Assembly (NCBI GenBank): GCA_029262415.1
Contig: JAJCZL010000058.1
Coordinates: forward strand, 62,001 to 126,000
Origin: Deltaproteobacteria bacterium
GTDB taxonomy: Bacteria; Desulfobacterota; Binatia; UBA1149; JAJCZL01
Direction of reading: 5' to 3'
Length of the DNA stretch: 64,000 nucleotides
In this document: positions 37,381 through 55,153 of the stretch, in pieces
Numbering within the stretch: the first letter of the stretch is position 1
Layout of the letters: each line of letters begins with the position of its first letter
The notes under the pieces: model-generated
The model's database searches: none
What the model was told of the DNA's origin: nothing
What the model saw: only the letters and a program-made list of their open reading frames with translations
Program-made: the position numbers and the translations under genes

Positions 37381-38901
37381 TTAGAGCAAGAAATCGATCG
37401 GCGTGTAACCCGTATAGTTGCGACCGTCATCGTCCAACGTCGGAGTCAGCGGGAAGACAAACGAGCTACCGTTGCCCGCAATCTCGCCGGCGGGCACCCC
37501 TAACCAACGGTTGATGATAGTCCCGAAGAAGTCGCGAACATCATGCTCATAACGCAGATCGTTGTCATGACCGGCAGGTGGGTTGTCGAGCTTCGGATAG
37601 GTTCCGAAGATGCCACCCTGGACCGCACCACCGAGCACCATTTGCGCCGCACTGGCCGCGTGGTCGGTGCCCGCCTCGTTGGCGCCGCTGGCATTCTGAG
37701 CCATCGTCCGACCAAACTCAGAGAACGTCACGATCACCGCGTCGTTGATCAGGTTACCGGTCTTGTACGGGTGCGATCCGTAGCCGCCGCTGCCCGGCAA
37801 GGTCACGCTCTGGTCGAGTTCTTCGTAGAACGCACCGACCGCTTCACTAAGCGTGTGCAACAACCCCGCGTGGAACAACGATTTCGCTTGGCCTGAGTGG
37901 CTATCGAAGCCGCCGATGTCAACGTGAAAGTAACACGCACCTACGTCGGCGCGAATGATCGCCGCCACGTGACGAAGGTCGCGCGCCAGCCGGCTCGAGA
38001 CCCCGTTCAACGGCGAGGTGTAAACCAAGTCGTTGTTGGCGCTGTAGGAACCGCTCCCGTTGAGCAGCAGTGCCTCGACCGGCCCGGCGTTGCCCGAGTC
38101 GGGGAAGCCGTTACCGCTCTTGTAGTACTCCTCCATCTTGGTGATGGTCGCCTGGCCGGTCTGACCGATCTTTGAGAGTTCGGGATACGTGACGGAGCTG
38201 AGCGCGGCGGAATCCCCGTGCATGGCAAGCACCGCGTCCCGCTTTGCGTTCGTCTCACCGTTAGCGGGGAATTGCAGTTGGTTGAGTCTGGTGATCGCGA
38301 AGAGACTCGCTGTCGTGGGTGTGTAGACGGGGTTCAGCGAACCATCCATGATCACTACCGGCACTTGGGTGGGACCGAAGGCCAGCTTGTCGAGCGTCTT
38401 GCCGAACCACCCCTGGCCGCCGTTGCCGATCGGGTCGCCGGTGTACCAGATCACTTCGCTGCGGAAATGAGAGTGGTTCGAATGCGGGTAGTGCACGCCG
38501 GGCGAGATCGCCAGCTTGCCGGCCTGCGAAATCGCATGCAGCCGCGTCATCGTCGGATGCAACGCGTACTCTTCGAGGTCGTCGTCGAGCCCGACCGACA
38601 AGACGGCTGTCGAGTCCGGGAATGCACCGGAATACTTACTCGCGACAGCGACATCGCTATCGGGCTCTTGGAGAGTCGGCCGGATCGATTCATAGATAGA
38701 TCGCTGGGTTCCGGAGAGCGGATAAATCGTGCCGAGTCCGTCGTTGCCGCCGTTCATTTGAACGACAACTACAATCTTGTTGCCCGGTCCTGCCGCCCAA
38801 GCCACGTTGGTGCCCGGCACCATCCGCATGTACGGGCTTGCCGCAACTCCCGCCGTTGCCAACGCGCCGCGCTTGATGAACTGTCTTCTGGTTATCGCCA
38901 T
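37381..38901 (-). CDS. DUF1501 protein (Tat-type signal)
   Basis: MAITRRQFIKRGALATAGVAASP, VQMNGGNDGL, VTFSEFGRTMAQNASGANEAGTDHAASAAQMVLGGAVQGG. Confidence 0.93.
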   Translation of the reverse strand: MAITRRQFIKRGALATAGVAASPYMRMVPGTNVAWAAGPGNKIVVVVQMNGGNDGLGTIYPLSGTQRSIYESIRPTLQEPDSDVAVASKYSGAFPDSTAVLSVGLDDDLEEYALHPTMTRLHAISQAGKLAISPGVHYPHSNHSHFRSEVIWYTGDPIGNGGQGWFGKTLDKLAFGPTQVPVVIMDGSLNPVYTPTTASLFAITRLNQLQFPANGETNAKRDAVLAMHGDSAALSSVTYPELSKIGQTGQATITKMEEYYKSGNGFPDSGNAGPVEALLLNGSGSYSANNDLVYTSPLNGVSSRLARDLRHVAAIIRADVGACYFHVDIGGFDSHSGQAKSLFHAGLLHTLSEAVGAFYEELDQSVTLPGSGGYGSHPYKTGNLINDAVIVTFSEFGRTMAQNASGANEAGTDHAASAAQMVLGGAVQGGIFGTYPKLDNPPAGHDNDLRYEHDVRDFFGTIINRWLGVPAGEIAGNGSSFVFPLTPTLDDDGRNYTGYTPIDFLL

Positions 38902-38912
38902 TATCGCTTTCC

Positions 38913-40472
38913 TCAGTGCACTTGGCTCTCGGCCGTCTGGTACAAGAGCGAGATCAAGCCACGCACCTTGGTTTCAACATCGCCGGTGAACTCGCTGCTC
39001 AGATCGAGCGTTGCAGCGGGATTACCGTCACCCGCGTAGTTGATCAGCGCGTCACGCTGCACGGTACTGAGCGGCACCGGACCGAGATCGAACCCACCTT
39101 GCTCGATCACCGCGTCAACGACATCGGTGACCACGACGGCCGCGTTGCCGAGCAGCGGTGCGATTTTACTCATCTTCTTGAACCTCAGACGGCTGCTTCC
39201 GAAATCGGAGCCGCCGAAATCCTTGGCGAAATCCATACGCTCGAGCAGCGTGCCCGCGTTGATCCACGCCAGGCCGCCGGGCCAGCCGGCAACATTGGGC
39301 GGCTCAAACAGACGCATCCCCATATCGTCGAGCACGCGGCCTAGATCGTTGCTGTCGCCGACGTTCTTACCGTTGGTCTTGACGCTGAACGCGCGCAGCA
39401 TCTGCACCACGTACTCCGCCGGGCTTTTAACCGTACGGCTCTTTGCCTCGGCACTGTAGAACTCATCAGAGGTCAGGATCGCACGAATCAAAGACTTGAT
39501 CTCGAAGCCGGCGTTCACGAACTCCAGAGCGAAGGTCGCGAACATGGCCTTCATGTTCGCGTGCGCTGAACCAAGCGCCGCGAAATCAACCGAAGGCGGC
39601 GGGAACGCGTACCACGTCCACAACTTGGACGCTAAGAACATGCCGACCTGGTTGTTACCGCCGTCGTCGGTCTTCTCAAAGATGTACTTGAGCGCGTCGT
39701 CGACGGTGTCCGCGACACCCTCATCGAAGCGGAGGTTCTGACCGCTGTATGCGAACCCGCCGATACCGTCATCGAAGAGTTCGATCGGCGCCGGGTTGCC
39801 CGGGTTGTTGTCGGCGTCGTACTCTCCGATCTCGAAGACGCCGATATACTGGCCCTTGTTGTTCTGGAATTCACCGACCCAACCGCTGCTTGCGCGTGCG
39901 AGGTTTTGCACGTCGGATTCGCTGTAGTTCTCCTTGGCAGGATCGGGCGCACCATCATCGCCGATTTGAAAAACGCCAAGACAGAAAAGCTCCATGACCT
40001 CGCGGCCCCAGTTTTCGTTGATGTTGTTTTTGCGGTTGATGATCCCGTCAAGATAAATGAGGTTGGCGGGATCACGGTTGAACTCGCGCATCAAAGTCTT
40101 GAAGCTTCCGCCGCCGATGTTGCGGAACAGGCGGTTCTGGTAGGACAACCAGCGGTACTCGTCGAACTTGTCAGCGCCACTGACAAGGTGGTCGTGCAGG
40201 AAAAGCACGAACTTTTCCCGAGCGGCGTCCGAGGGGCGCTTGGATTTTACCATGCGCTTGATCCACCAGCGTTGCATCGAGCGGAGCGAAGCCGTGCTGT
40301 CGTCTTTCTTCGCCGGAGGTTTGCTCTTCTTACCTTTGAAGCTGAGCATCGAGTCGACAGCCTCTTCGACGCTGGCGAAGTCGTCGAGAAAATCCTGTAT
40401 CTTATCAGGCGGCGCGCCGAACCCCGCTCTCTTGAGCAGATGGGCTGCGTTCTCATAATTCCAAACTGCCAT
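38913..40472 (-). CDS. DUF1800 protein
   Basis: AAHLLKRAGFGAPPDKI, FVLFLHDHLVSG, NENWGREVMELFCLGVF, PPNVAGWPGGLAWINAGTLLERM. Confidence 0.93.
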   Translation of the reverse strand: MAVWNYENAAHLLKRAGFGAPPDKIQDFLDDFASVEEAVDSMLSFKGKKSKPPAKKDDSTASLRSMQRWWIKRMVKSKRPSDAAREKFVLFLHDHLVSGADKFDEYRWLSYQNRLFRNIGGGSFKTLMREFNRDPANLIYLDGIINRKNNINENWGREVMELFCLGVFQIGDDGAPDPAKENYSESDVQNLARASSGWVGEFQNNKGQYIGVFEIGEYDADNNPGNPAPIELFDDGIGGFAYSGQNLRFDEGVADTVDDALKYIFEKTDDGGNNQVGMFLASKLWTWYAFPPPSVDFAALGSAHANMKAMFATFALEFVNAGFEIKSLIRAILTSDEFYSAEAKSRTVKSPAEYVVQMLRAFSVKTNGKNVGDSNDLGRVLDDMGMRLFEPPNVAGWPGGLAWINAGTLLERMDFAKDFGGSDFGSSRLRFKKMSKIAPLLGNAAVVVTDVVDAVIEQGGFDLGPVPLSTVQRDALINYAGDGNPAATLDLSSEFTGDVETKVRGLISLLYQTAESQVH

Positions 40473-40574: not shown

Positions 40575-41639
40575 TCACTCCCCGGTAGTTCCCGCAACCC
40601 AGCCGGTTTGAGGGGCTGGACCGGTGAGGCCGTCGCCGAGGATCCACAGGCGGATCAGATCGATGATTTCTGGATCAAGCGGCGCGAGGCCAAACGGCAT
40701 TTGGCTGCCGTAAGCGGCCAAGAGATCGCCGGTGATCTTTCGGTACAAAAAGCTGTTATCGAAATCGCCGCTGCCGTCGACCCGTAACAGCCCGTCACCA
40801 GCAGCCGCGGCGTTAAACGGCGCAACACCGACCAACTGCCCGTAAGCATTGATCGGCAAGAGATTGAGCCCACCGGCGTTGCTCTCGTCGTCGTGACAGG
40901 CTGAGACCGCGCACGAAGCAGCGAACACCTGTTGACCGATCCGGTCGAATGTTCCGTCGTAAAGATCGAGCGGTAGATAGACCCTATCGCCTTCGGCACG
41001 GCACTTGAACTTGATTTTGTCCCTGTCGGTCTTGCTTCGGCTTGTCGCCGTGCCGTCGGACTCCATGCGCAGGACCTTCTTATTGTTGCTCATCTTGTTC
41101 GCGCCGTTCGGTCCCTTGAGGCGAACCGTGATCGAACTGACAAGCGTGCAATCGTTGAGGTTCAGGTTGTCAGGAAACTCAAGAAGGTTCACCCGTTGCT
41201 GCAGAGCCTGGAATTCTGTGTCGAACTTAGGGTCGCCATTGTCCTCGGCATGATCGATCACGACCTCGTCGACGAATTCCGGCGTGCAGTCGGGAATGAA
41301 GCTGTCCGAGTTCAGGCAAATCGAGACGTCGAACACGCATCGCCCGTTGCGCTCACCATCGATATCGCAGGCGAGATCACCGTCCACGCAGTCAACGTGC
41401 TTTGGCGCTTTCGGGGGGGCCGGCTTATTCGCCGAGGGCACGTCGAACACCGAGATGCAGTCGGACTTCTTACTGCCACCCCCACGGACCAGCTCCGCGT
41501 CGACAGTCGAAGCCGACACAAAAAAGGCAAACACCGCCACATAGGTACAAATTAACTCTCGCAATCCGGGCATCTCGCCTCTACTCTCCCTAGTTCCACA
41601 AGTCGGCTCCGCCGCCAGCGCCGTAGCGTCTCGTAGCAA
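40575..41639 (-). CDS. Secreted protein with cytochrome-c-like domain
   Basis: QQVFAASCAVSACHDDESNAGGLNLL...DNSFLYRKITGDLLAAYGSQMPFGLAPLDPEIIDLIRLWILGDG. Confidence 0.7.
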   Translation of the reverse strand: MLRDATALAAEPTCGTRESRGEMPGLRELICTYVAVFAFFVSASTVDAELVRGGGSKKSDCISVFDVPSANKPAPPKAPKHVDCVDGDLACDIDGERNGRCVFDVSICLNSDSFIPDCTPEFVDEVVIDHAEDNGDPKFDTEFQALQQRVNLLEFPDNLNLNDCTLVSSITVRLKGPNGANKMSNNKKVLRMESDGTATSRSKTDRDKIKFKCRAEGDRVYLPLDLYDGTFDRIGQQVFAASCAVSACHDDESNAGGLNLLPINAYGQLVGVAPFNAAAAGDGLLRVDGSGDFDNSFLYRKITGDLLAAYGSQMPFGLAPLDPEIIDLIRLWILGDGLTGPAPQTGWVAGTTGE

Positions 41640-48002: not shown

Positions 48003-48407
48003 CTAGCGCTCCTTGCCGGGCAGCTTCACGGGCCCTTCGGGTGGCGGTCCGACCGCATCGCCCTCGGCCAGCTGCCGCTTCCAATCAAGAACGCGAGCCT
48101 TGGCACCCGCCTCTTCGGCGGGCTCGATCATCCCGGCGCGTTGATAAAACATCGATAGGTTCGTGTACGAGAGCACATCCTCTGGATCGATCTCCACCAG
48201 CCGTTGTCCGAGCTCTATCGCCCGTTGGTAGTCTTCCATGGCTAAATAGCACATGGCCTTGCCGAGAATCGCGTCTTTGTACTCACTGTCACGCGCAAGG
48301 CAGCGGTCAAAAACCTCGATTGCCTCGATGTGTTTGCCCTCCCCGTGGAGGTCGGCACCCGCGTAAAAGAACTCTTCTAACTCGGAAATCTCCTCGTCCT
48401 CTGGCAT
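48003..48407 (-). CDS. TPR-repeat protein
   Basis: AIEVFDRCLARDSEYKDAILGKAMCYLAMEDYQRAIELGQRLVEIDPEDVLSYTNLSMFYQRAG. Confidence 0.8.
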   Translation of the reverse strand: MPEDEEISELEEFFYAGADLHGEGKHIEAIEVFDRCLARDSEYKDAILGKAMCYLAMEDYQRAIELGQRLVEIDPEDVLSYTNLSMFYQRAGMIEPAEEAGAKARVLDWKRQLAEGDAVGPPPEGPVKLPGKER

Positions 48408-48454: not shown

Positions 48455-49624
48455 GTGGTTTTTGACGTGTCGCAGAACCTCGAACAAGAAATACTTACCT
48501 TCATCGCAGCGCGGGGGACGGACATGGACTTTGATGCGCTCGCGCTCAAGGTCTTCGCCTATCAGTTCGAGCACGTCGAGGTCTACAGGAAGTTCTGCGA
48601 GCGACGCGGTGTCTTGCCTGGTCAGGCTGCATCTTGGAGGCATATCCCGGCCCTGCCGGTCGACGCGTTCAAGCGGAACATGGGGCTCCCCGGCAAACGA
48701 GCGATACGATTCGCGAGCAGCGGCACCACGCAAGGGGCGTCACGGCGCAGCACTCACCAGCTGCGCAACACTCAGACCTATCGTGCCTCGGCGCTCGCAC
48801 ACTTTACCGATATGGTCGTCCCCGATGATCCCGGCGCGATGACCTGCCTTGTTCTGGGACCGACCTTGGCAACGCATCCGGAGTCTTCACTCGGGCAAAT
48901 GTTTACGTGGTGCGCGCAAGAGTACACGGTGAGGACCGACAGCCGAGCGCCGACACCGGCCGGCAACACCACCGTCTGCTTTGCCGCCGACGGAAGCGCG
49001 GATCTTGATGCAGCGGTCAAATGGCTCACCCAGGCCGCATCCGCCGCTAAGCCGGTTTTGATCTTGGCTATCAGTTCGGCGTTGAGCGGCCTATTTGCCG
49101 AACTGCGCAAACGTCGTCTGATGTTGCGATTGCCTGCCGACAGCAGGATCGTCGATACCGGAGGGAGCAAGGGCGCCGCAGGTGTGCTCTCCGCGCGCGG
49201 GATGCTCAAGGCCGCGTGGCGCTACCTACACGTCGCCGCGTACTCGTGCGTCAACCAATACGGAATGACGGAGATGCTCTCGCAATTCTACGACGACGCG
49301 CTGATCTCGCGGGTCGAGGGATCGCTCGCCCCGCGCAGCAAACGCGGCCCGGTTTGGGTGAGGACAAGTGTCGTACATCCGGCTACACTGGCGCCCGTGA
49401 GCGCTGGTGAAACAGGGATTTTAAGACACGTTGATCTGGCCAACTGGGACACCGTCAGCGCGCTACAGACGCTCGACACAGGCCACACACTCGGCCGCGG
49501 TTTCGCGCTGACCGGCCGCGCCCCCCTTGCTGAGGCACGCGGATGCTCACAGCTCATGGCGGTCCTCGACCAGGGCGGACTCGCCAAAGCGGCCAGCGAC
49601 ACCGACAGGGAGCCGAGTCAATGA
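48455..49624 (+). CDS. LuxE-like acyl-protein synthetase
   Basis: FRFASSGTTQGASRRSTHQL-type motif (IRFASSGTTQGASRRS), AYSCVNQYGMTEMLSQFYDD; start GTG 48455 chosen, track ORF extends upstream into antisense of TPR gene. Confidence 0.85.
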   Translation: MVFDVSQNLEQEILTFIAARGTDMDFDALALKVFAYQFEHVEVYRKFCERRGVLPGQAASWRHIPALPVDAFKRNMGLPGKRAIRFASSGTTQGASRRSTHQLRNTQTYRASALAHFTDMVVPDDPGAMTCLVLGPTLATHPESSLGQMFTWCAQEYTVRTDSRAPTPAGNTTVCFAADGSADLDAAVKWLTQAASAAKPVLILAISSALSGLFAELRKRRLMLRLPADSRIVDTGGSKGAAGVLSARGMLKAAWRYLHVAAYSCVNQYGMTEMLSQFYDDALISRVEGSLAPRSKRGPVWVRTSVVHPATLAPVSAGETGILRHVDLANWDTVSALQTLDTGHTLGRGFALTGRAPLAEARGCSQLMAVLDQGGLAKAASDTDREPSQ

Positions 49625-51003
49625 GCGGCACACTCGGAGGCCGCGGCGGGCCCGGCAAAACTTCCGCTCGTGGAGAAACGTCCGATCGGCCCCACAAGGC
49701 CAACGCGGGCGACAGTCTGCGACGCCGGCTCGCACAAAGCCTCGACAGCGCACTCGCGGCTCGCACCCAAGCGCTACGGCGCTTCACCAACGACGCGCTG
49801 GTAGCCTCGCTTGCCGGCGTGGCGACGCGCTGGACGCAAGACGATTACGCCCCACGCAAGTACGTGATCGCCGAACTCAGCGAGATGCTCGCCATCGACC
49901 CTGCAATGATGCGACGCGGTCTCGACAACATTTTCTCGGTTCTCAACGCCGATGCGCTTACCGAGCTCGTTCACAACGAAGCGCCGACCCCCGATGGCAT
50001 GGAGCGCGCGCACACTTTGCCCAGCGGAACGCAGGCGCGCCTACTCGGTCCGCGCGTGGTTTACTACGGTCTGGCAGGCAACGTACCCGGGCTCGCGATA
50101 CCGGCGATCGTCGCAGGTCTGCTCGCACGCTCGGTGGTGATCGTGCGCGACAGCATACGGCAGCCGATCCTTACCGAGTTGTTCCTGGATACGCTGGCCG
50201 AGGAGGTGCCGCCGCTTGCAGAAATGGTCATCCCGGTTGGCTGGGACGCAAACAACATCGAGATGGAAGCTCTCGCGATCAGCGCATCGGGTCGTGCCGA
50301 GGTCTACGGAAGCGACAAGACTGTCAGCGAAATCGCAGCCCGCCATCAAGACCGTGTCATGCACACCCACGGCACCAGAGTCAGCATCGGACTAGTGCCC
50401 GGCAGTTCAGACACCGATCAGTGGGCTGACGGCTTCGCCGAAGACATGTGTATGTACGAGGGGCGCGGCTGCCTCTCGCCGAAAATACTCTACGTCGTCG
50501 GGCCTCGTGCCCGCGCCGAGCGATTGGCCCGCCGCATGGGCATCGCACTTCGGCGTGTCGACAAACTGTGGCCACGTCGAACCCAAACGCTGGACGACGA
50601 ACTCGCGCGACGCAGCTTCATGGATAACGCCGAGCTCACCGCCTCGCGTGACCAGGGGAACACCGTGGAATTCGGCCGCGAGGGCAGCTGGTGTGTGCAC
50701 CTCAGCGACGCCGTGGCTGTGGATGCGGCGCCCGGGCTGCGCTGCATTACGGTTGTTGCCGCCAGTGACGAGAAAAGCGTGGCTGAGGCCGTCGAAGCCT
50801 CGCCTATTCCCGTAGCGGCTGTCGGCCTTGCCATGCATCCTCGGCAGGACAACTACCACGCGCTTGCAGAGTCACTCAGAGCTGCCGGGACAACGCTGGT
50901 ATGCGCACCGGGCTCCATGCAGGCACCGCCGATTTCCTGGAACCCCGACGGCGGCAAGCGCCTCGGTGATCTTTTGCAATGGCGCCCAATCGATCAGGAC
51001 TGA
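49621..51003 (+). CDS. LuxC-like acyl-CoA/acyl reductase
   Basis: VVYYGLAGNVPGLAIPAIVAGLLARSVVIVRDSIRQPILTELFLDTLAE, MYEGRGCLSPKILYVVG (ALDH-like Cys region); ATGA coupling to luxE-like gene. Confidence 0.87.
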   Translation: MSGTLGGRGGPGKTSARGETSDRPHKANAGDSLRRRLAQSLDSALAARTQALRRFTNDALVASLAGVATRWTQDDYAPRKYVIAELSEMLAIDPAMMRRGLDNIFSVLNADALTELVHNEAPTPDGMERAHTLPSGTQARLLGPRVVYYGLAGNVPGLAIPAIVAGLLARSVVIVRDSIRQPILTELFLDTLAEEVPPLAEMVIPVGWDANNIEMEALAISASGRAEVYGSDKTVSEIAARHQDRVMHTHGTRVSIGLVPGSSDTDQWADGFAEDMCMYEGRGCLSPKILYVVGPRARAERLARRMGIALRRVDKLWPRRTQTLDDELARRSFMDNAELTASRDQGNTVEFGREGSWCVHLSDAVAVDAAPGLRCITVVAASDEKSVAEAVEASPIPVAAVGLAMHPRQDNYHALAESLRAAGTTLVCAPGSMQAPPISWNPDGGKRLGDLLQWRPIDQD

Positions 51004-52220
51004 AACCTCCGGGCGCGGACGACTGGGTTCGTGAGCGGTTCCGCCGCGCGCTGACGCCGACGTCCGGCTCGCCTATGGGCATTATCGTAGGCGAAGCGCG
51101 CGGCTGCACTGTACGCGACACCGACGGTGTCGAACACATCGACTTGCTCGCCGGCATCGGCGTTGCGGCCACGGGACACGGCGATCCACGTATCCTAGCC
51201 GCGATCGACGAGCAGATGCAGCGCCATCTGCACGTGATGGTTTACGGTGAGTTTGTGCAAGAGACTCAACTGCTACTCGCCGAGCGCTTGCTTTCGTTGC
51301 TGCCCGAGCCACTTTCGAGCCTCTACTTTACCAACTCGGGAACCGAAGCGGTCGAAGGCGCACTGAAGCTCGTGCGTAAGGCGACCGGACGGACTCGGCT
51401 GGTCTCCTTTCACGGAGGGTTTCACGGCGACACACTCGGTTCGGTGTCGGTTGGTGGAAACCCACTGTATCGCCATCCATTTATGCCCTTGCTGCCCGAT
51501 GTCGTCTTCGCGCGCTTCAACGACACGGCCTCACTCGACGTTATCGATACCTCGGTTGCAGGAGTCATCGTCGAACCCGTGCAAGCCGAAGCCGGCGTGG
51601 TTTTGCCCGACGATGGGTTTCTGCAAGAGCTGCGCGAGCGCTGCACGCGTGTAGGCGCGCTGTTGATTTTTGACGAAGTCATCACCGGGTTTGGGCGCAC
51701 AGGATCGTTGTTCGCGCTGCAGCGATACGGCGTCGTTCCTGATGTGCTGGTGCTCGCCAAGGCGTTGGGCGGCGGACTCCCACTTGGTGCATTTGTGAGC
51801 CCTCGCAACACCGCCGGTGTGTTTTCGGAGAATCCGCCACTCGGACACGTAACTACGTTCGGTGGTCATCCGCTCTCGTGCGCCGCCGGACTCGCATCGC
51901 TCGAGATTATTTTAGAAGACGGCCTCGCCGAAGCCGCCGAAACCACCGGCGCGCATTTAGAGTCGCTGCTGCGTGCGCGGCTCGCCCACGACAGCGTCCG
52001 GGAGATCCGCAGAGCCGGGCTCTTGATCGGCATTCAAATGGATACTGCAACGCACGTCGCGGCGTTTAGCGAAGAGTGTCGGCGCGAACGACTGATCCTG
52101 GGCTGGACCTTACACGACGATACCGTCGTAAGACTCGCGCCTCCTCTGGTGATCACTGAAGTCGAGGTCGACGAGGCCGTAGGCCGAATGCATCGTGCGC
52201 TTGAAAAAACCGTCGGCTGA
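50979..52220 (+). CDS. Class III aminotransferase
   Basis: DLLAGIGVAATGHGDPRIL, LYFTNSGTEAVEGALKLVRKATGRTRLVSFHGGFHGDT, LIFDEVITGFGRTGSLFAL, DVLVLAKALGGGLPLGAFV. Confidence 0.95.
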   Translation: MAPNRSGLKPPGADDWVRERFRRALTPTSGSPMGIIVGEARGCTVRDTDGVEHIDLLAGIGVAATGHGDPRILAAIDEQMQRHLHVMVYGEFVQETQLLLAERLLSLLPEPLSSLYFTNSGTEAVEGALKLVRKATGRTRLVSFHGGFHGDTLGSVSVGGNPLYRHPFMPLLPDVVFARFNDTASLDVIDTSVAGVIVEPVQAEAGVVLPDDGFLQELRERCTRVGALLIFDEVITGFGRTGSLFALQRYGVVPDVLVLAKALGGGLPLGAFVSPRNTAGVFSENPPLGHVTTFGGHPLSCAAGLASLEIILEDGLAEAAETTGAHLESLLRARLAHDSVREIRRAGLLIGIQMDTATHVAAFSEECRRERLILGWTLHDDTVVRLAPPLVITEVEVDEAVGRMHRALEKTVG

Positions 52221-52228
52221 AGAGTCTG

Positions 52229-53336
52229 CTAGGCCGACTCGCTCATTAGAAAGGCACGGATAAACGGATCGATGTCGCCGTCAAGCACCGCGTCGGCGTT
52301 GCCGACTTCCTGACCCGTACGCGTGTCCTTTACCAAACGGTAAGGGTGCAGCACGTAGTTACGAATCTGCGACCCGAACGCGTTGTCCATCTTGCTGGGC
52401 CCGATCGAGTCGAGTTTCTCGCGCTGTTTCAGCCGCTCGAGTTCGTAGAGCTTCGAGCGCAGAATCTTCATCGCCGTGGCTTTGTTCTTGTGTTGCGAAC
52501 GTTCGTTCTGACAGGCGACGACCATCCCGGTGGGGAGGTGGGTCAGGCGCACTGCAGAGTCGGTCTTATTGACGTGCTGTCCACCGGCACCGCTCGACCG
52601 GTAGGTATCGATTCGTAGATCGTCGGTGTCGATATCGACAACAATCGTGTCATCGATCTCCGGGGCGACATGTACGGCACAAAAACTCGTATGCCGTCTC
52701 TTGGCGCTGTCGAACGGAGAGATCCGCACCAGGCGATGAATCCCAGCCTCCGAGCGCGTGTAACCGTAGGCGTACTCGCCTTCGATGGTGAAGATCGCCG
52801 ACTTCAGTCCCGCGCCGTCACCAGGTGTGTACTCGATCACGTCGACCTTGAACCCGCGGCGTTCCGCCCAGCGCAGATACATTCGAAACAACATGTCACC
52901 GAAGTCTTGCGACTCGGTGCCGCCGGCACCCGGGTGAATTGTCACGATCGCGTTGGAGTCGTCGTACTCGCCCGACAACATGCGCCGCAGCTCTGCGTCG
53001 TCGGCCATCGCCTCGGCTTTGTCGAGCAGGGCGAGAAGCTCGCCGCCGGCGTCTTTGTCGCCCTCGCCGGCCAACTCGACGTAGACCCCCATATCCGAGA
53101 GGGCCTCCTGTAGGGCACGATGGCCTAGGATCTTCGCCTCGAGCGAGGCGTGCTCACGGGTTACTTCTTTGGCTTTGTCTTGGTTGTTCCAGAGATCCGG
53201 ATCAGCACGCATCGAGTCGAGCTCGGCAAAGCGGGTTTCGAGGGCCTCGAAGTCAAAGATGCCTCCCGAGAAGAGCAATCCTCTCCTCTAGCGCCGCCAC
53301 CCGCGCTTTGGCATCCGAAAGTACGTCCATCTCCAT
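52229..53336 (-). CDS. prfB: Peptide chain release factor 2, with programmed +1 frameshift (in-frame TGA at 53255-53253)
   Basis: GGQHVNKTDSAVRLTHLPTG; upstream frame MEMDVLSDAKARVAALEERIALLGRHL* then CTT-T-GAC shift into DFEALETRFAEL... Confidence 0.95.
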
Positions 53337-53605: not shown

Positions 53606-54274
53606 ATGCAGTTCGTGCAACTTTCCACACTTCTCTCTCCAGAGAAGCTCCCGTATCCAAGCGGTGTCGAGCGCCTTGCCGACGGGGTTCTGCACGTCGC
53701 TGTTCTAACTCGTATGCCCGACGTCTCGCCCAGGATGATCGAATGGTGGTTCAGCGAGTACATGGAGACGACCGAGCACTACAAGCGATGGCACCCGCGA
53801 GACCACCTCTGGATGTCGTGGGAAGACAAGCAGCCCCATACCCACGTTGGCGCCAAGCACCTGGTTCACGAGCGCATAGGAGGCAAACTCAACAAACTCC
53901 GCATTACCTTCGTACCGCCGGAGGAGTACTTCCGCGATGCACTGGAGGAGGTTCCAGGCGCCGTTGCAATTTGTGCGCGTGCCGGCCTGCTCGAACGCCC
54001 AGTTGACCTCGGACGCATGGTTCATCTCGCCCTGCCCCGGCGTTGGGGCTGCGAGCTCCACAGTAGGTTCTGGCTTGGGTATGTCAGCTCGCGGTCCGGA
54101 ACTCGCCTCGTCGAGACAATGGGTAATCTCCCATGGATACGACGTTCTCAAGCGCGAATCTCAAGCGGTCGCGCGCTTCTGGTGCATTGCCACGAAGAGA
54201 TGACGACTCTCGCCGGGTTCCTTCCTGACCTCTACGCGTCCGAATCGAGAACTAGGGAAACTCTGCACAAGTGA
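53606..54274 (+). CDS. DAPG-hydrolase (PhlG)-like protein; last codons supplied by MITE copy 2
   Basis: MIEWWFSEYMETTEHYKRWHPRDHLWMSWEDK...LVHCHEEMTTLAGFLPDLY; the C-terminal ...ETLHK* lies in the MITE TIR. Confidence 0.65.
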   Translation: MQFVQLSTLLSPEKLPYPSGVERLADGVLHVAVLTRMPDVSPRMIEWWFSEYMETTEHYKRWHPRDHLWMSWEDKQPHTHVGAKHLVHERIGGKLNKLRITFVPPEEYFRDALEEVPGAVAICARAGLLERPVDLGRMVHLALPRRWGCELHSRFWLGYVSSRSGTRLVETMGNLPWIRRSQARISSGRALLVHCHEEMTTLAGFLPDLYASESRTRETLHK

Positions 54275-54661: not shown

Positions 54662-55153
54662 ATGGCAGGACATCTACGAATAGAGAAGGGTGAGAGGGGT
54701 GAGACTGTGTACCGCCTGACCTCTCACCGAAGAACCATCACGGAGACCGACATCGTGACCTTCGTAAACCTGGTCGGGCTTCATGAGCCGCCCTTCATCG
54801 ACATGGAATGGGTAAATAGGGAGATGCCGGGAATCCATAACAAGAGGTTCGCACCGGCTCCGTTTTTGATCTCCTTGGGAATGGGGTTGATGGCGACCTC
54901 AATCATGGAGGTTATGGATGCCATCGTCGCACAAGAGAACCTCGGACCGTTTCACGGAATGGTCGGCGTCGAAGCGAAGGTACACAACCCCGCCTTCCCC
55001 GGTGATACCCTCAGCGTGGATCTAGAGGCCGGCGTTGATCGACGGACAAAGAACGGGCAGACGCTGGTCGACCTAAGGCACGTCCTCAAGAATCAAAGAG
55101 GCGAAACGGTTGTCAGCTTTACCGAGAAGATCATTTTTGACCCGCCGGTATAG
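54662..55153 (+). CDS. MaoC-like hotdog-fold dehydratase
   Basis: RTITETDIVTFVNLVGLHEPPFIDMEW...RFAPAPFLISLGMGLM...NPAFPGDTLSVDLEAG. Confidence 0.75.
   Translation: MAGHLRIEKGERGETVYRLTSHRRTITETDIVTFVNLVGLHEPPFIDMEWVNREMPGIHNKRFAPAPFLISLGMGLMATSIMEVMDAIVAQENLGPFHGMVGVEAKVHNPAFPGDTLSVDLEAGVDRRTKNGQTLVDLRHVLKNQRGETVVSFTEKIIFDPPV

Follow-up and report, generated by a model that had tools for sequence, protein, structure and literature searches.

Acid-to-amine chemistry has been proven for TamA and TamH of tambjamine YP1 biosynthesis, which convert a C12 acid to a C12 amine with L-Glu in three demonstrated steps (PMC9594044). It has also been proposed, with evidence, for the prodigiosin protein PigE, in which an N-terminal thioester reductase and a C-terminal class III aminotransferase form one protein (PMC8341465). 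LuxE and LuxC are known from the fatty acid reductase of luminous bacteria (PDB 7xc6) and, as a luxE–luxC pair without luciferase, from a flagellar glycosylation island of Aeromonas (PMC7874193). Here we analyse a 64,000-nucleotide window (the whole stretch examined, from contig JAJCZL010000058.1) of a bacterium of the class Binatia, in which overlapping genes for a LuxE-like protein, a LuxC-like protein and a class III aminotransferase form one three-gene unit on the forward strand (48455-52220 of the window; hereafter ‘the trio’). The original prediction had drawn attention to this trio, and its coordinates, with the ATGA and 25-bp overlaps, were borne out when rechecked from the sequence. 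We consider it probable that the three genes encode one relay from acid through aldehyde to primary amine, with a hydrophobic, possibly fatty, acid as the most likely substrate. Coupling of these conversions is well supported by sequence comparison, because gene order is conserved, two kinds of fusion occur, the genes are present or absent jointly, catalytic residues are invariant, and the aminotransferase forms a separate clade that lacks the arginine gripping a substrate carboxylate.

The trio shares with the luminous LuxC–LuxE reductase its two families, both catalytic cysteines and the adjacency of the genes, but scores far below the equivalog cut-offs, and its aldehyde apparently goes to an aminotransferase. 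No luciferase gene was seen beside the trio (luxA and luxB were not searched for genome-wide), and LuxD (PF02273) gave no match in the window's own genome, where the positive control gave none either. The trio LuxE also retains the canonical YGMTE motif typical of ANL adenylating enzymes, which luminous LuxE lacks. With TamA/TamH the trio has in common acid adenylation, an acyl thioester, reduction to an aldehyde and class III transamination to an amine; reductase and aminotransferase are fused in TamH, as are LuxC and the aminotransferase in Binatia family f13. However, TamA carries an acyl carrier protein (ACP), the aminotransferase precedes the reductase in TamH, and TamA/TamH belong to one antibiotic cluster, whereas the trio is class-wide. 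The domain order of PigE matches that of the LuxC–aminotransferase fusion, yet PigE, which like TamA/TamH sits in an antibiotic cluster, has an AAR/GluTR-type reductase and no LuxE partner, and the trio aminotransferase scores 287 bits against the 850-bit PigE cut-off. Because the TamH and PigE reductases are of the acyl-ACP-reductase type and that of the trio is a LuxC (PF05893), we regard the trio as working like these systems without belonging to their family. In the Aeromonas island, luxE and luxC lie with an ACP, an AMP-dependent synthetase and glycosyltransferases, and no class III aminotransferase has been described as coupled to them.

No description of a LuxE–LuxC–aminotransferase system was found in the open-licence PubMed Central literature, and the main Binatota genome paper mentions neither aminotransferases nor Lux proteins; a LuxE hit in a solanimycin paper was a mere name match within its reference list. 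The idea that the system is undescribed thus survives for the LuxE/LuxC-based, class-wide version in the literature searched, but not for the chemistry, which TamA/TamH and PigE share.

The search with each trio protein covered 152 Binatia genomes, with a strict threshold for the aminotransferase ortholog. LuxE was present in 108, LuxC in 109 and the aminotransferase ortholog in 106; all three co-occurred in 103 genomes, 41 had none, and the 8 with a partial set were mostly fragmented assemblies. Among 82 Binatia loci examined, all three genes could be placed in 71, and every one of these had the order LuxE–LuxC–aminotransferase on one strand (71/71; contiguous in 63). This identity of order and strand rules out chance adjacency, and the conservation in relatives on which the original prediction had staked its case was thereby found. 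Genes inserted between trio members vary or sit on the opposite strand. The surroundings are quite different between several families while the trio stays intact: TPR, prfB and SDR genes are shared chromosomal neighbours that are missing at the trio loci of families f6 and f8-f12, and the neighbourhood comparison revealed no fourth partner gene conserved with the trio throughout Binatia.

Fusions of both adjacent pairs were found. LuxE and LuxC are fused in family f6 (L058, L061, L066, L233, L235, L236), and LuxC and the aminotransferase in family f13 (L080-L086, L092) and in a related record (L104); both types are uninterrupted single reading frames in which both Pfam domains were found. Because they join each neighbouring pair, these fusions are strong evidence that each enzyme hands its product on, LuxE to LuxC and LuxC to the aminotransferase.

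The 41 trio-free genomes include families f14-f16 and single members of trio-bearing families (G083, G038/G039, G147), and also G091. This scattered absence suggests that the trio genes were lost together more than once. No trio lies next to prfB in G083 or G111; contig ends restrict the confirmation of single absences, and the G147 contig stops beside prfB. Outside Binatia we found one case of the trio, L103 (labelled Nitrospirota), whose aminotransferase falls inside the trio clade.

Trio members form a clade in the aminotransferase tree but not a strict clade in the LuxE and LuxC trees, which is consistent with an older LuxE–LuxC pair that this aminotransferase joined once. Gemmatimonadota, Paenibacillus, Verrucomicrobiota and further lineages of the window's phylum carry related LuxE–LuxC pairs without an adjacent aminotransferase (ARRANGEMENTS). 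In the last of these (L211-L220), LuxE–LuxC lies between a conserved FAD/NAD (pyridine nucleotide-disulphide) oxidoreductase upstream and a protein of the U32 peptidase family downstream; there is no class III aminotransferase, and this is another use of LuxE/LuxC free of luciferase. In Gemmatimonadota (L111-L124), a conserved gene pair that reads from its sequence as an ABC-type ATPase and permease comes after LuxE–LuxC, again with no aminotransferase. LuxE–LuxC is also found in Myxococcota, Bdellovibrionota and Vulcanimicrobiota beside class III aminotransferases of another clade, in which HGL replaces HGD and Arg385 is lacking; the order is mostly aminotransferase–LuxE–LuxC (Table 1). This appears to be an independent coupling of the same activities, which lends weight to the acid-to-amine reading; the listed neighbourhoods of the Myxococcota and Bdellovibrionota loci indicated no product.

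The LuxE-like open reading frame (ORF) scores 24.9 bits with Pfam LuxE, exactly the cut-off. However, a profile of its Binatia relatives matched the solved LuxE of the LuxC–LuxE complex (7xc6_E) over nearly its full length (E 1.3e-29), so the weak score reflects distance and not chance. In this comparison C363 aligns with the C-terminal cysteine of solved LuxE, and it is invariant, within an RGC motif, in 61/61 Binatia sequences (residue counts here and below rest on alignments of 57 to 61 Binatia sequences). An AlphaFold2 model (mean pLDDT 87) found PaaK-type ligases as its best Foldseek matches; among these neighbours are the ligases for phenylacetate and 2-hydroxyisobutyrate, as well as EhpF, a protein of phenazine biosynthesis. 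Since the EhpF partner EhpG carries an aldehyde dehydrogenase annotation, we take EhpF solely as a caution about substrate. The ORF contains the LuxE/ANL domain only, with no fused ACP, and the three-gene unit has no ACP.

The LuxC-like ORF scores 160.6 bits with Pfam LuxC (PF05893) and matches solved LuxC (7xc6_A) with E=8e-12, C284 aligning with the active cysteine region. C284 and N154 are each kept in 60/60 sequences. The catalytic cysteine of LuxC never changes despite a mean identity of 31% across Binatia (LuxE, 43%; aminotransferase, 57%). The catalytic residues of LuxC and LuxE that the original prediction wanted to see in an alignment are thus present and, together with YGMTE, make acid activation, acyl hand-over and aldehyde-forming reduction plausible.

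The third protein scores 332 bits with Pfam Aminotran_3. In a 40-row tree the trio aminotransferases form a single clade (support 100/100); neither Escherichia coli ArgD, AstC, GabT, PuuE, BioA or PatA nor the other class III enzymes of the genome fall within it. The pyridoxal phosphate (PLP) lysine K261 (57/57), E204 (57/57) and R385 (55/55) are invariant. In acetylornithine, ornithine and GABA aminotransferases an arginine (R180 of ornithine aminotransferase, OAT) forms a salt bridge with the carboxylate of the substrate, and there is a Glu-Arg pair for 2-oxoglutarate (YgjG structure paper, PMC4244111). In the trio enzyme the position of that arginine is Asp151 (57/57). With the E204/R385 pair kept and the arginine replaced, the simplest reading of the pocket is that glutamate would be the donor and the acceptor an aldehyde without a second carboxylate. 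Among solved structures, YgjG and ArgD come closest, as they would for any enzyme with this fold. Putrescine aminotransferase PatA/YgjG (4uox), the top structural and sequence match, also lacks the carboxylate-binding arginine (Lys183), but it has Lys where the trio has Asp, occupies a separate tree branch, is catabolic and has no LuxE/LuxC link.

In the relay we propose, the LuxE-like enzyme would adenylate a free carboxylic acid with ATP and pass the acyl group from acyl-AMP to its own Cys363. The acyl group would then move to Cys284 of the LuxC-like reductase, where reduction with NAD(P)H would yield the aldehyde, which the aminotransferase would convert into a primary amine with glutamate as the most likely donor. 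Transfer from LuxC to the aminotransferase is probably a direct hand-over, since one family carries the two as a fusion. The substrate would most likely be a hydrophobic, possibly fatty, acid lacking a second carboxylate. We infer the direction, donor, cofactor, substrate class and channelling from these comparisons, as well as any role, such as an amine serving as head or tail group of a lipid.

Several observations weigh against this relay or its proposed substrate. No trio member has a known enzyme activity, and the unit is linked neither to a consumer of the amine nor to an ACP. Of the three proteins, LuxC shows the lowest conservation (mean identity as above). LuxE-like and LuxC-like proteins reach 30 and 64 bits against NCBIfam equivalog cut-offs of 550 and 750 bits, so the chain-length preference of luminous LuxE/LuxC is not transferable. 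The aspartate in the aminotransferase pocket would also suit a cationic substrate.

What the relay acts on is therefore the point at which readings diverge. Family precedent in LuxE/LuxC and the lost carboxylate-binding arginine argue by analogy for a fatty substrate, and we tentatively raise the possibility that a LuxE/LuxC fatty acid reductase with a dedicated aminotransferase makes long-chain primary amines as a core envelope or lipid constituent of most Binatia. The same three steps might instead act on an acid that is small or not fatty, such as an aromatic, hydroxy- or amino-acid-like one, and the product would then be, say, a diamine or an aryl/alkyl amine used as a building block, in place of a fatty amine. 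The presence of EhpF and of PaaK-type ligases acting on small and aromatic acids among the Foldseek neighbours, the match to YgjG, the possibility that Asp151 binds a cation, and a spread over most of the class that fits a primary metabolite all point this way. Characterised LuxE/LuxC use long-chain acyl groups, however, and profile similarity spans all of LuxE; moreover, the occurrence of the arginine decarboxylase SpeA neither complements nor tracks that of the trio, which speaks against a simple replacement of putrescine synthesis. We judge this small-acid alternative rather unlikely. The trio as a substitute for arginine-decarboxylase putrescine synthesis is unsupported, SpeA co-occurrence being uncorrelated either way. 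Of the original prediction, then, transamination of the aldehyde has gained from gene order, fusions, co-occurrence, residues and the aminotransferase clade. The long-chain or hydrophobic nature of the amine stays conjectural, because no gene for the origin of the acid or for use of the amine is linked to the trio, the folds closest to the LuxE-like model include enzymes that ligate small and aromatic acids, and the aspartate would also suit a cation.

Three further alternatives concern the aminotransferase and the direction of flow. It might be an acetylornithine, ornithine or GABA aminotransferase that merely adjoins LuxE–LuxC: its best NCBIfam match is acetylornithine transaminase (362 bits), and it is 39% identical to the genome's own ArgD. 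It falls, however, under every ArgD cut-off checked (362 versus 457 bits for PRK03244; 338.6 versus 410 for TIGR00707), whereas the separate own ArgD exceeds both (470.6 and 479 bits). The distinct clade, the Arg-to-Asp replacement, the LuxC–aminotransferase fusions and the joint loss also oppose this reading, which we find highly improbable; the clustering with ornithine/GABA enzymes that might have been feared was not seen. Cut-offs, tree and Asp151 reject an ArgD/OAT/GABA aminotransferase as far as sequence allows. HpnO, the aminohopanoid aminotransferase, is likewise a class III enzyme acting on a carboxylate-free hydrophobic aldehyde. However, squalene-hopene cyclase (PF13243) was found neither in the own genome nor in sampled members of the order, nearly all trio-bearing, and hopanoid genes are not adjacent to the trio, leaving an HpnO-type enzyme scarcely credible. 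For this genome (assembly 96.8% complete), the missing cyclase rules it out. Finally, the route could run in reverse as a detoxification, the aminotransferase deaminating amines to aldehydes handled by LuxC/LuxE; in principle both the aminotransferase and the LuxC reaction can run backwards, and YgjG and GabT are catabolic. Yet an ATP-dependent LuxE with intact YGMTE, and both acyl-carrying cysteines, are sensible only for acid activation, and a detoxifying route would require an ordinary aldehyde dehydrogenase, which makes the reverse direction very unlikely.

The limits of the unit and its immediate neighbours are given in Table 1. With a divergent TPR gene upstream and a convergent prfB downstream, the unit is exactly LuxE–LuxC–aminotransferase. 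GC content at third codon positions is near that of neighbouring housekeeping genes (somewhat lower for the aminotransferase), and so gives no strong sign of recent acquisition. Elsewhere in the window, a DUF1800–DUF1501 gene pair (37381-40472, reverse strand) adjoins a third large ORF (40575-41639), and a gene encoding a DAPG hydrolase PhiG domain (53606-54274; PF18089, 142 bits) is followed by one for a FAS1-dehydratase-region (hotdog-like) protein (54662-55153).

Table 1. Coordinates of the trio, its landmarks and neighbours in the window, and of second-clade loci in their own records.
Feature	Position	Strand	Basis or remarks
LuxE-like acyl-protein synthetase (ANL/PaaK-type adenylating enzyme)	48455..49624	+	Pfam, profile versus PDB, AlphaFold2/Foldseek, conserved Cys
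LuxE-like ORF ends	start GTG 48455 (alternative GTG 48467); stop TGA 49622-49624	+	
LuxE-like residue numbering	residue 1, codon 48458; C363 (RGC motif), codon 49544-49546	+	
LuxC-like acyl-protein/acyl-CoA reductase	49621..51003	+	start ATG 49621, stop TGA ending 51003; Pfam, PDB, conserved Cys
LuxC-like C284	codon 50470-50472	+	
Class III PLP aminotransferase, distinct clade	50979..52220	+	start ATG 50979, stop TGA ending 52220; Pfam, tree, residues
Aminotransferase residues	K261, codon 51759-51761; D151, codon 51429-51431; R385, codon 52131-52133	+	
LuxE–LuxC stop/start overlap, ATGA	49621..49624	+	sequence
LuxC end/aminotransferase start overlap, 25 bp	50979..51003	+	sequence
TPR gene, divergent, upstream edge; neighbour, outside the pathway	48003..48407	-	Pfam TPR; neighbour in many, not all, trio loci
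prfB (release factor 2), convergent, downstream edge; neighbour	52229..53278	-	NCBIfam prfB 487 bits, above cut-off
Second-clade aminotransferase with LuxE–LuxC	L110:1793-5108; L122:6574-10063; L125:6784-10567; L126:6766-12253; L175:273-3661		

Natural LuxE–LuxC and LuxC–aminotransferase fusions are ready candidates for one-pot acid-to-amine biocatalysis, and the gene content of trio-free Binatia (G083, G091, G038, G039, G147, f14-f16), compared with that of close relatives, could expose a downstream gene. If the relay operates as proposed, fatty acid reductase families associated with luciferase would gain a second role that does not involve luminescence and has a definite reaction, in a trio kept by roughly 70% of the genomes sampled from an uncultured class known only from metagenomes. 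A product other than a fatty amine would mean a new acid-to-amine route, and a fatty amine an unrecognised lipid or biomarker class. Were the long-chain reading true, fatty amines would be primary metabolites of an uncultured lineage, and not antibiotic tails.

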